Below the pieces are notes generated by a model, which saw only the letters and a program-made list of their open reading frames with translations, was not told the DNA's origin and searched no databases. The position numbers and the translations under genes are program-made. From Campylobacteraceae bacterium (GTDB lineage Bacteria > Campylobacterota > Campylobacteria > Campylobacterales > Sulfurovaceae), in NCBI GenBank assembly GCA_027038275.1, contig JALVXC010000131.1, positions 1 through 32,089 of the forward strand: a stretch of DNA of 32,089 nt. The letters are read 5' to 3'. This document shows positions 22,068-27,952 of this stretch, one piece after another. Position 1 is the first letter of the stretch; every line of letters starts with the position of its first letter.

Positions 22068-22123
22068 CTACTCTAGGGATAGACCCACAAAGAGTAAATT
22101 TAATTTCGCTAAGGAGCTTAGTG

Positions 22124-23131
22124 ATGAAGTATGATTACCTCATTTTTATAGGCAGATTTCAGCCATTTCACTTAGGACACGAGAGTGTTATTCGCAAAGC
22201 ATTAGAGTTGTCAGACAAAGTTATTGTCTTAGTTGGTTCAGCATATCAGCCAAGAACCGTTCGTAATCCTTGGGATTTTAATGAACGAGAGATGTTTATG
22301 CGTTCAGTCTTTTCAGAAGAGGAGAATAGACGAATTTTAGCCTTTCCTCTACTTGACTATACCTACAACAATCAACTATGGATAAAGTCAGTTCAACAGT
22401 TAGTAGCAGGTGTAGTTCACAACAAAATAGCCTCTAAACCCAAAATTGGACTTATTGGTCATCAAAAAGATAACACATCAGACTACCTAACACAGTTTCC
22501 ACAATGGGAAAGAGAAGAGGTAGCCAACTACAAAAACATCTCCTCTACAGAGATACGAGAACTCTACTTTAATAATCAGGAGTTTTCAAATTCACTGAAT
22601 AGTAATATATCAATTTTGCTAGAGAAGTTTAAAACTACTAAAGCCTATGAACAAGTAGCCAATGAGTTCCACTTTGTCAAAAAATATAAAAGTGCATGGG
22701 ACAATGCCCCTTATGCTCCAATGTTCATTACAGTAGATGCTGTAGTAGTTCAGAGTGGGCATATTTTGCTCATAGAGCGAAAGGCACAACCAGGTCGAGG
22801 CTTAATGGCTCTTCCAGGGGGATTTTTAGATGCAAATGAGACTCTTAAATCAGCAGTCATCAGAGAGCTAAGAGAAGAGACAAGAATCAAAGTACCAGCC
22901 CCAGTTTTAGCAGGAAGCATTACCAAAACCCAAGTTTTTGACGACCCCTATCGTTCGGCACGAGGAAGAACAGTAACTCATGCTTACCTCATAGAACTAA
23001 AAGGCGACAAATTGCCAAAAGTAAAAGGTGGTGACGATGCTTCAAAAGCCTTTTGGATACCTTTTGCCGAGGTCAAGCCAGAGTTGATGTTTGAAGACCA
23101 TTTTCATATTATTCAGGCTATGGTGGGGTAA
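22124..23131 (+). CDS. nadM: Bifunctional NMN adenylyltransferase / Nudix hydrolase
   Basis: The first about 175 residues are a NadM-type nucleotidyltransferase with GRFQPFHLGHE near residue 12 (the HxGH motif) and the SSTEIR motif near residue 145. It joins NMN to AMP to make NAD. The C-terminal half is a Nudix domain, with GGFLDANETLKSAVIRELRE followed by ET at about residues 243-264. It matches the Nudix box except that the last Gly is Arg; such domains often cleave ADP-ribose or related dinucleotides. I prefer the ATG at 22124, seven bases after AAGGAG, over the GTG at 22121. The fusion is known from bacteria and from phages such as KVP40. With nadV downstream it forms a two-step nicotinamide-to-NAD route. 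Confidence 0.88.
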   Translation: MKYDYLIFIGRFQPFHLGHESVIRKALELSDKVIVLVGSAYQPRTVRNPWDFNEREMFMRSVFSEEENRRILAFPLLDYTYNNQLWIKSVQQLVAGVVHNKIASKPKIGLIGHQKDNTSDYLTQFPQWEREEVANYKNISSTEIRELYFNNQEFSNSLNSNISILLEKFKTTKAYEQVANEFHFVKKYKSAWDNAPYAPMFITVDAVVVQSGHILLIERKAQPGRGLMALPGGFLDANETLKSAVIRELREETRIKVPAPVLAGSITKTQVFDDPYRSARGRTVTHAYLIELKGDKLPKVKGGDDASKAFWIPFAEVKPELMFEDHFHIIQAMVG

Positions 23132-23390: not shown

Positions 23391-23401
23391 CAACCGTAGG
23401 T

Positions 23402-23565
23402 CGGGATGTCCCAATGCCAATGACTTAAGGAATTAATCCAAAAATATAGCGAGGCTAAAGCCGTCGATTCCCTATATGCAATCTGCATTTTCGGAATCGG
23501 CGTGTTTACACCCGAACTATAAATGAGTCAAAAAATCCTTAGGTCATTGGCATTGCGGGATGTCC
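23402..23565. mobile_element. MITE-like element, 144 bp with 19-bp TIRs and 10-bp target duplication
   Basis: The 19-bp ends CAATGCCAATGACTTAAGG (23412-23430) and CCTTAGGTCATTGGCATTG (23537-23555) are inverted repeats with one mismatch. The perfect 10-mer CGGGATGTCC flanks the element in direct orientation on both sides (23402-23411 and 23556-23565), as expected for a target-site duplication. The interior is non-coding and full of nested palindromes: GGCTAAAGCC (23453-23462), CGATTCC/GGAATCG (23465-23471 and 23493-23499) enclosing ATGCA/TGCAT, and GTGTTTACAC (23502-23511). There is no transposase. It separates the small membrane gene from nadV and accounts for most of the 355-bp gene-free stretch there. 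Confidence 0.7.
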
Positions 23566-23667
23566 TCTTCCCTACAAAAACAGGCAAAAAACAGAAGCCC
23601 AATAAAACAAAAATTATTGGCAGATAGACAACATGAAATAAAGGATATTTATTTTATGCAAACAGGT

Positions 23668-23714
23668 GGTGCGTTAGAAAACAGCACCCAACACGTTCAA
23701 AACCGAAAGACGGT
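23668..23714 (+). promoter_or_regulatory. Leader hairpins upstream of nadV
   Basis: Two small stem-loops lie 30-80 bases before the nadV ATG: GGTGC/GCACC (23668-23672 and 23684-23688, loop 11) and ACCG/CGGT (23702-23705 and 23711-23714, loop AAAGA). They could be part of a leader structure, but the stems are short and no known riboswitch consensus is recognisable. Confidence 0.25.
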
Positions 23715-23745
23715 AAAGAACTTTTTCAACATAAAAGGATTTTTT

Positions 23746-25104
23746 ATGAAAAACATTATTTTAAACACAGACAGCTACAAATCAAGTCACTATTTACAGT
23801 ACCCACCAAAGAGTGAGTATGTCTCTTCATATATCGAAGCACGTGGTGGTGAGTATGACAAAACACTATTTTTTGGATTACAAGCATTCATTAAAGAGTA
23901 CCTCTTAACACCAATCACACAAGAGGATATAGACGAAGCCAAAGCAATTATAACAGCTCATGGTCTACCATTTAACGAAGAGGGTTGGCAATATATTTTA
24001 GAAAAATACAACGGATTTTTACCCATTGAAATATCTGCTGTAGCCGAGGGAATGTTAATCCCTCTAAGATGCCCCTTGGTTCAAGTAATCAACACCGACC
24101 CAAAACTGCCTTGGTTAACCTCATATATGGAGACAGCCTTGCTCAGAGCCGTTTGGTTTCCTACCACCGTAGCCACTCTTTCGTACTCTATCAAAGAGAT
24201 TATAAGAGGCTATTTAGAAGCCACAAGCGACAATGTAGAAGCACAACTACCCTTTAAACTACACGACTTTGGAGCAAGAGGAACATCAAGCGAAGAGTCG
24301 GCAATGTTGGGTGGTATGGCTCATTTAGTGAACTTTCAAGGTACAGATACCATGTCAGGGATTATCGGTGCAAGAGCTTACTATGGGGCAGATATGGCAG
24401 GTTTTTCAATCCCTGCTAGTGAACACTCCACCATGACAAGTTGGCAAAGAGAGGGCGAAAGAGATGCTTATGCAAACATGATAAAACAGTTTGGAGGCAA
24501 AGGCAAAATCTTTGCTGTAGTCTCCGACTCTTACGACATCTACAACGCTGTAAGCAACATTTGGGGCAAAGAGCTAAAAGAGCAAGTAAAGAAAAGTGGT
24601 GCAACCTTGGTCATTCGCCCAGATTCAGGAGAACCAAAAGAGATAGTATTGGAGGTTATGAAACGAGTTTACACCGAGTTTGGAGGCTACAAAAACTCAA
24701 AAGGCTACATTGTTTTAGACGACTCTGTACGCATTATCCAAGGTGATGGAGTAGACAAACAAGCTATCAAAGAGATATTGGAAATATTGAAAAATGAAGG
24801 CTTCTCTGCTGACAACATCGCCTTTGGAATGGGTGGAGGACTACTACAAGCCGTAGGAAGAGATGACTTTAAATTTGCTATGAAAGCGTCGGCTATCTGT
24901 GTGGGTGGTGAGTGGAGAGATGTTTACAAAGACCCCATTACCGATAGTGGCAAGAGGTCTAAGAGGGGGAGATTGGCTTTGAGTTGTGATTTTGAGACTG
25001 TTAGAGTTGAGGAGTTGGAGGGGCGAGAGGATTTGTTGAAGGTTGTGTTTAGAGATGGTAGGCTTTTGAGGGATTATGGGTTTTGGGAGGTTAGGAATAT
25101 TTGA
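23746..25104 (+). CDS. nadV: Nicotinamide phosphoribosyltransferase
   Basis: NadV (NAMPT) condenses nicotinamide with PRPP to give NMN, the substrate of the nadM product upstream. From the ATG at 23746, after AAAAGGA, the protein is 452 residues. Upstream in-frame codons to 23560 enter the MITE and are not credible. Characteristic parts are NTDSYKSSHYLQYPP at the N-terminus, FGARGTSSEESAMLGG near residue 178, ASEHSTMTSW near 225, LVIRPDSGEP near 290, QGDGVD, and FGMGGGLLQAVGRDDFKFAMK near 362. The body is rich in A and C on the plus strand, but from about 24,955 the coding strand becomes G/T-rich with many AGG codons, unlike the rest. Confidence 0.92.
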   Translation: MKNIILNTDSYKSSHYLQYPPKSEYVSSYIEARGGEYDKTLFFGLQAFIKEYLLTPITQEDIDEAKAIITAHGLPFNEEGWQYILEKYNGFLPIEISAVAEGMLIPLRCPLVQVINTDPKLPWLTSYMETALLRAVWFPTTVATLSYSIKEIIRGYLEATSDNVEAQLPFKLHDFGARGTSSEESAMLGGMAHLVNFQGTDTMSGIIGARAYYGADMAGFSIPASEHSTMTSWQREGERDAYANMIKQFGGKGKIFAVVSDSYDIYNAVSNIWGKELKEQVKKSGATLVIRPDSGEPKEIVLEVMKRVYTEFGGYKNSKGYIVLDDSVRIIQGDGVDKQAIKEILEILKNEGFSADNIAFGMGGGLLQAVGRDDFKFAMKASAICVGGEWRDVYKDPITDSGKRSKRGRLALSCDFETVRVEELEGREDLLKVVFRDGRLLRDYGFWEVRNI

Positions 25105-27020: not shown

Positions 27021-27206
27021 TTAATTTTTACGCCATTGGCAATAACATTCCTATACCCCAAATGCCCATCAAGAAAAAGAGACAACTCAATAAAGTCATC
27101 CTTAAACTCCTCAGATAATTTAATCTTCATTAGGTTATTTTGAGGATACCAACTCTCTTTAGTTAGACTTTTTGTCATTCCAGAAGAAGTATTTTTAACA
27201 GAAATT
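27017..27206 (-). pseudogene. C-terminal fragment of an unknown gene cut by the RAYT element
   Basis: Reading leftward from the transposon edge, one frame gives about 62 codons of protein-like sequence. It includes SVKNTSSGMTKSLTKESWYP, MKIKLSEEFKDDFIELSLFL and a final ANGVKIN before TAA. To the right the frame runs into the palindrome and antisense of the transposase, so the original 5' part is missing. Its stop overlaps the AlbA_2 stop in the opposite direction. I do not recognise the family. It may be the distal half of the gene beginning at 27952, but the frames do not join exactly. Confidence 0.5.
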
Positions 27207-27874
27207 AGCTCGTTCCCACCATCTTGGTGGGAATACATACGAGAGTAACAACAACAAAACCAATCTCTAAAAACAAATAAGCTACAATACCCAATGGGAA
27301 GAAGTAGATACAAAATATATGAACCAACACATCCACATTTCGTAACCTGTACTATACTCAATTGGCTACCAATATTTACAAGAAAAGAGAGTGTAGATAT
27401 ATTAATTCAAAGTCTAAAACATCTACAAAAAGAAGAGAACTTAAAACTCTATGCTTATGTAATTCTCGAAAACCATATACACCTAATAGTCCAAAGAGAT
27501 GATATAGGTAGAAGTATGAGACATTTTAAATCATTTACAGCAAAAGAGCTTTTAAAACTCTTACAAAAAGAGAATGCAGAGACACTATTAAAACAATTTA
27601 GATTTTACAAAAAAGCTCATAAAAAAGATAGAACCTATCAAATATGGCAAGAGGGCTATCAACCAAAACTTATCCAAACTGATGGAATGATGATAAATAA
27701 GATAAACTATATTCATCACAATCCAGTAAAGAGAGGTTATGTAGATGAAGCTATTCATTGGAGATACTCTAGTGCTAGAGATTATGAGGGGATAGATGGG
27801 CTTATTGAGGTGGAGAGATTTTGGTAGTTTTAGTTCTCGTATGCGTTCCCACCGAGGACGGATGGGAACGAGCT
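27207..27874 (+). mobile_element. RAYT transposase unit bounded by inverted REP-like palindromes
   Basis: The left boundary (27207-27245) and right boundary (27836-27874) are inverted copies of about 37-39 bp with a 2-bp length difference. Each starts from AGCTCGTTCCCA at the outer edge and contains an internal palindrome: TTCCCACC/GGTGGGAA (27213-27220 and 27226-27233) on the left, and CGTTCCCA/TGGGAACG (27844-27851 and 27863-27870) on the right. GTTCCCA-type palindromes flanking a Y1 transposase are typical of the REP/RAYT system. The unit is 668 bp and appears to interrupt a minus-strand gene. Confidence 0.7.
27294..27827 (+). CDS. REP-associated tyrosine transposase (RAYT, Y1/HUH family)
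   Basis: The 177-residue protein is a single-domain HUH nuclease of the IS200/IS605 TnpA relatives that move REP sequences. It has THPHFVTCTILNWLPIF near the N-terminus and the metal-binding HUH motif in ENHIHLIV near residue 61. The C-terminal INYIHHNPVKRGYV near residue 138 carries a conserved tyrosine likely to be the nucleophile, followed by WRYSSARDY. The length is normal and the frame is uninterrupted, so it may be active. Inverted palindromes on both sides are the probable substrates. The start at 27294 has only a weak ribosome binding site. Confidence 0.88.
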   Translation: MGRSRYKIYEPTHPHFVTCTILNWLPIFTRKESVDILIQSLKHLQKEENLKLYAYVILENHIHLIVQRDDIGRSMRHFKSFTAKELLKLLQKENAETLLKQFRFYKKAHKKDRTYQIWQEGYQPKLIQTDGMMINKINYIHHNPVKRGYVDEAIHWRYSSARDYEGIDGLIEVERFW

Positions 27875-27952
27875 AAAGATTTGAGTTAAACTTTTTTCGG
27901 TTTCATTGATGCCAAAAAAGATATTGTCAGGAATGTTTATAGAAAGTTGCAT
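27830..27952 (-). pseudogene. N-terminal fragment of a gene interrupted by the RAYT unit
   Basis: ATG at 27952 begins MQLSINIPDNIFFGINETEK and continues to SLTQIF. The frame then enters the right palindrome of the transposon and stops. The opening resembles the first strand of small antitoxins that start with a beta strand and IPD, such as UPF0175, but too little remains to be sure. It overlaps the 3' end of the antitoxin-like gene upstream by 16 bases. The same first 14 codons occur again at 29940-29899. Confidence 0.5.

Follow-up and report, generated by a model that had tools for sequence, protein, structure and literature searches.

The window, by which we mean the whole stretch of DNA analysed here (32,089 nucleotides), carries two NAD genes on the same strand, a short insert in the gap between them and a gene for a REP-associated tyrosine transposase (RAYT). 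The features are listed by position:

22121..23131, + strand: bifunctional NMN adenylyltransferase/Nudix gene (nadM/Nudix; NCBIfam NF003786, 496 bits, cut-off 397)
23396..23401, + strand: left remainder of the target REP, GTAGGT with GTAG tag (intact in L226, diverged in L220)
23402..23411, + strand: left copy of the target site duplication (TSD), CGGGATGTCC, a direct repeat 100% identical to the right copy
23412-23555: the whole miniature transposon (MITE), 144 bp, no gene inside
23412..23434, + strand: left terminal inverted repeat, IS4-like, CAATGCCAATGACTTAAGGAATT; complementarity with the right end 91%
23448..23471, + strand: internal REP-type hairpin 1, AGCGAGGCTAAAGCCGTCGATTCC, inverted pair with hairpin 2
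23493..23520, - strand: internal REP-type hairpin 2, GGAATCGGCGTGTTTACACCCGAACTAT (+ strand letters), inverted partner of hairpin 1
23533..23555, - strand: right terminal inverted repeat, pairing with the left end
23556..23565, + strand: right copy of the TSD, CGGGATGTCC, direct repeat
23566..23575, + strand: right remainder of the target REP, TCTTCCCTAC; the empty site L226 reads TCTTCCCGAC here
23746..25104, + strand: nadV-type (nicotinamide/nicotinate phosphoribosyltransferase) gene (NCBIfam NF006629, 635 bits)
27205-27218 / 27863-27876: inverted GTTCCCA-type REP arms flanking the RAYT gene, 100%
27294..27827, + strand: RAYT gene (NCBIfam NF047646, 104.9 bits, cut-off 80)

The 144-bp insert and its empty site

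The insert near nadV is a genuine MITE: the segment at 23412-23555 is short and non-coding, is bounded by terminal inverted repeats and a TSD, and has both an empty site and dispersed copies. A preliminary description of this DNA had presented it as an intact-looking 144-bp element with a 10-bp target duplication, and both points are borne out, with CGGGATGTCC perfect on either flank. The 19-bp terminal repeats with one mismatch given there stand as the core of longer arms, which span 23 nt with two mismatches (21/23 complementary, 91%). As single-stranded DNA, the element has a predicted end-to-end fold of -30.9 kcal/mol (z = -7.1), matched by 0/200 shuffles. Its nested palindromes, correctly assigned to the REP type from the outset, form an inverted pair at 23448-23471 and 23493-23520. 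With tagged palindromes, inverted arrangement and a short spacer, this core (23448-23520) is REPIN-like; the element as a whole, instead of being bounded by REP tags without a TSD, has CAATG ends and a 10-bp TSD. Both repeats also occur singly in the host genome, that of hairpin 1 at G000:C170, C163 and C101, and that of hairpin 2 at C168 and C36.

The empty site predicted earlier was found in G032, which belongs to the same genus and has an orthologous nadV gap; its locus L226 reads GTAGGTCGGGATGTCC-TCTTCCCGAC with a single CGGGATGTCC and no element. The alternative that the flanking 10-mers are a native direct repeat fails, because this element-free genome has just one of them (L226, GTAGGTCGGGATGTCCTCTTCCCGAC). 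Sequence to the right of the insert aligns with G032 at ~91% identity, and a more distant relative (L220) has a diverged version of the empty site. The insertion target was a GTAG-tagged REP hairpin. When joined, this hairpin is weak in the window (-2.6 kcal/mol vs -7.6 for the G032 version) and among the weaker ones in the family, with the TSD lying off its symmetry axis. The insertion had been called recent, for which the perfect duplication speaks; against it, the nearest copies, from other species, are just 93-95% identical and the host assembly has no such transposase. The term therefore holds only relatively.

The element lies 190 bp upstream of nadV, within the gap between the two same-strand NAD genes, a position that would favour the earlier suggestion of changed nadV expression, or the splitting of a NAD operon. 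Neither a terminator nor a + strand promoter was found in it, however, and the nadM-nadV gap contains different REP pairs or additional small ORFs in nearly all relatives. Because of this variability and the lack of both signals, an effect on nadV expression is unsupported, though not disproved, and we consider it very unlikely.

The GTAG-tagged inverted REP pair in this gap varies among the relatives (L220, L222, L223, L225 and L228), which gives the gap the look of an insertion hotspot. A leader just upstream of nadV, GTTCMAAACCGAWAGACGGTAAAGAAC (23694-23746), is nearly invariant in ~10 relatives, and its predicted fold is a hairpin in two parts. In L224 it reads ACTTTGAACCGATAGACGGTTTTAAAGT, where the modelled outer stem may have changed in a compensatory manner. 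The leader may act as an RNA regulator of NAD salvage. An Rfam search of the window, leader included, returned no match at gathering scores, and two sub-threshold matches near the MITE (E 0.39, 0.49) were dismissed as chance.

Copies, sub-families and target sites

The search for further copies proposed in the preliminary description returned near-complete ones, 86-95% identical, in genomes of the same genus, probably Sulfurovum to judge from named contigs. In the host assembly itself, a single intact copy represents this type, next to which there are a shorter relative at C66 and a small number of decayed ends. Fetched regions yielded 74 paired copies. At 38 distinct sites, the two 10-bp flanks differ by no more than one base (30 of these TSDs are perfect), and dropping sites with similar flanks left 24 independent ones. 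Since the duplicated sequences vary between sites, most of the 38 are separate insertions. About half of the 74 paired copies have no matching duplications, a pattern compatible with recombination between copies and equally with mis-assembly of contigs built from short reads. At L013, L049 and L165, the flanking 10-mers are inverted rather than direct, exactly or nearly so, and recombination or mis-assembly may account for this. Four copies in G003 (L109, L173, L174, L182) have flanks that are alike beyond the REP, which suggests duplication of the MITE and the REP pair around it as one unit.

At least three sub-families have common ends and unrelated inverted REP pairs inside. The type A core is that of the window element (28 copies), type B has the core GTAGGTTCGAT...ATCGAACCTAC (41 copies) and type C is built of GTAGGGACAAGGC-type repeats (4 copies), each core being an inverted pair of REP-like hairpins. 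Judged by eye, types A and B have ~35 bp of left subterminal sequence in common.

A REP hairpin as target is a rule of the family, a point absent from the preliminary description. As far as sequences can tell, the family prefers REPs or other palindromes, usually near the dyad axis. At 21 of the 24 independent sites, the TSD centre lies within a predicted stem-loop, enclosed by at least 4 bp of stem, compared with 41% of control positions taken from the same loci at a distance of 40-150 bp (p = 5e-6). Median DNA folding energy is -5.2 kcal/mol at these sites vs -1.3 kcal/mol in controls (p = 1e-11). Simply counting dyads separated sites from controls less clearly than folding energy did (p = 1e-4), since REP stems with bulges obtain low scores by that measure. 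At 29/37 sites, counted without de-duplication, the best inverted repeat has its axis no more than 1 bp from the TSD centre, and unique termini abut REP halves in 123/172 cases vs ~3% of random positions, with REP patterns defined post hoc. Stem-loops reappeared time after time when flanks were joined at sites whose duplications match well. Stems of unrelated sequence are among the targets (GTTCCCA-type, GGCTNNAGCC-type, GTAG-type and GGAGTAAGGTTACTCC), and in one case a copy is nested in the REP of another copy (L070 in G030). TSD position 4 favours T (24/38) and position 7 favours A (27/38), with symmetric flanks.

Behind this preference there would be a transposase that recognises dyads or hairpins in DNA, rather than the survival of insertions where they do no harm. 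Intergenic REPs are plentiful in these genomes and the examined copies lie mostly in intergenic DNA, so that random insertion followed by survival in harmless REPs might mimic a preference. Controls 40-150 bp from the same insertions nevertheless fold far less, and survival alone does not predict a TSD that is usually centred on the symmetry axis; we regard this explanation as unlikely. A stronger competitor, to which we give somewhat less than an even chance, is that the transposase reads a short symmetric sequence motif that REP stems contain by chance, not the hairpin structure. IS10, for instance, prefers a symmetric core as target. The T and A bias at TSD positions 4 and 7 with symmetric flanks fits motif reading, whereas the occurrence of unrelated stems among the targets counts against it.

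IS4-type ends and the candidate transposase

The MITE ends, CAATGCCAATGAMTTAAG, resemble those of E. coli IS4. The K-12 copy of IS4 has the ends TAATGCCAGTCAGTTAAG / TAATGCCGATCAGTTAAG, which follow the same pattern at ~14/18 positions by eye, and its TSD is similarly long (12 bp vs 10 bp in the MITE). Unlike E. coli IS4, the MITE measures 144 bp, is geneless and carries REPs. The family end CAATGCCAATGAATTAAG, identical in many sister MITEs and one base from the CAATGCCAATGACTTAAG of the window copy, is also found in Sulfurovum sp. UBA1140 and bin170, where it adjoins an IS4-like transposase gene that is decayed, at the 3' part of that gene. All four of these remnant ends (4/4) lie at a REP-type palindrome, and the largest transposase remnant scores just below the Pfam cut-off (22.7 vs 23). 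The search for a transposase with matching ends, called for in the preliminary description, has accordingly turned up a candidate type, IS4-like, with one matching end. Among intact relatives, that of G386 has the ends CAACCCCATTGACTTAAG, an 11-bp TSD and a protein matching the NCBIfam IS4 model, and that of G030, a 460-aa transposase, adjoins a related end.

The searches gave no intact IS bearing precisely these ends, a scan of contigs for the parent returning decayed fragments only. In a scan of 397 genomes of the phylum, the intact relatives were all distant, and intact relatives have ends that are related but different. In a plasmid collection, the transposase matched IS4-family elements at <40% identity. 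The host assembly has no gene for DDE_Tnp_1 or a relative, so the window copy is probably immobile now, or came with a partner since lost; in short, it is probably stranded. The assembly may be incomplete, in which case a transposase gene could be missing from it.

We consider it highly probable that the insert is a non-autonomous IS4-type MITE, moved in trans by an IS4-like transposase into a GTAG-tagged REP, and that it belongs to a Sulfurovum family preferring REPs and palindromes. An IS4-like DDE transposase supplied in trans would recognise the CAATGCCAATGAMTTAAG ends, mobilise the MITE and insert it, with a 10-bp duplication of the target, into the stem-loop of the REP that lies in the gap from nadM/Nudix to nadV. 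At the level of sequence, the ends, duplications, copies, empty site and target preference are documented, as is the end in common with a decayed IS4-like gene; that an IS4-like transposase did move the MITE is what we infer.

The RAYT gene and its flanking REPs (27205-27876) constitute a probable REPtron. GTTCCCA-type REPs, as found around this gene, are among the targets that the MITE family favours elsewhere, in other genomes. RAYTs are the type of enzyme thought to spread REPs, including GTAG REPs and REPINs/BIMEs (PMC3116915, PMC3733652). With a RAYT gene 3.7 kb from the element, a core that is an inverted REP pair, and cores and single REPs found without the ends, the insert might be read as a REPIN/BIME-type repeat spread by RAYT, its terminal repeats being merely an outer palindrome. 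Against this speak the perfect 10-bp duplications exactly at the CAATG ends, a mark of DDE transposases, the presence of the same ends on three unrelated REP cores, and the same kind of end on IS4-like remnants; we consider this reading very unlikely. A further reading, which we put forward as doubtful, describes a shell-and-core element, in which an IS4-type MITE shell would hold a REP-pair core exchanged between unrelated REP families. Two transposase types could each spread such an element, which would re-enter REPs, those of its own relatives included, by recognising hairpin shape.

Relation to known systems

The preferred reading, an IS4-type MITE inserted into a REP, has a precedent in ISRm22 of Sinorhizobium meliloti, an IS4-family element with all its copies in REPs, inserted at the axis of palindromy; some copies have hybrid duplications, ascribed by Tobes and Pareja to recombination between copies (PMC1525189). 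ISRm22 is autonomous, makes 6-bp duplications and has a single REP consensus, whereas the Sulfurovum MITE has 10-bp duplications and several unrelated REP families. REPINs/BIMEs resemble the MITE region in their internal inverted pairs of tagged palindromes, and the window also offers a GTAG-tagged target and a RAYT; in the MITE, however, the REP pair is enclosed by IS4-type terminal repeats with a TSD. REP dimers within longer palindromes have been seen in other bacteria, with no transposase assigned (PMC3733652). Compared by length, coding capacity and presence of terminal repeats, NEMIS, Nezha and ERIC (named in PMC3733652) are, like the MITE, non-coding elements of 70-300 bp with terminal inverted repeats; the MITE differs by putatively hairpin-directed targeting and REP cores. 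REP targeting by the IS4 family is thus already known from ISRm22. The open-licence literature searched contains no description of a family combining IS4-type ends, a 10-bp TSD, exchangeable REP cores and several unrelated REP targets.

As a caution, REP 'families' in such genomes can travel as passengers. One nested system here joins two classes of small repeats, IS-derived MITEs and RAYT-linked REPs, and its dozens of natural insertion sites offer a test of whether an IS4-type transposase reads palindrome structure or sequence.
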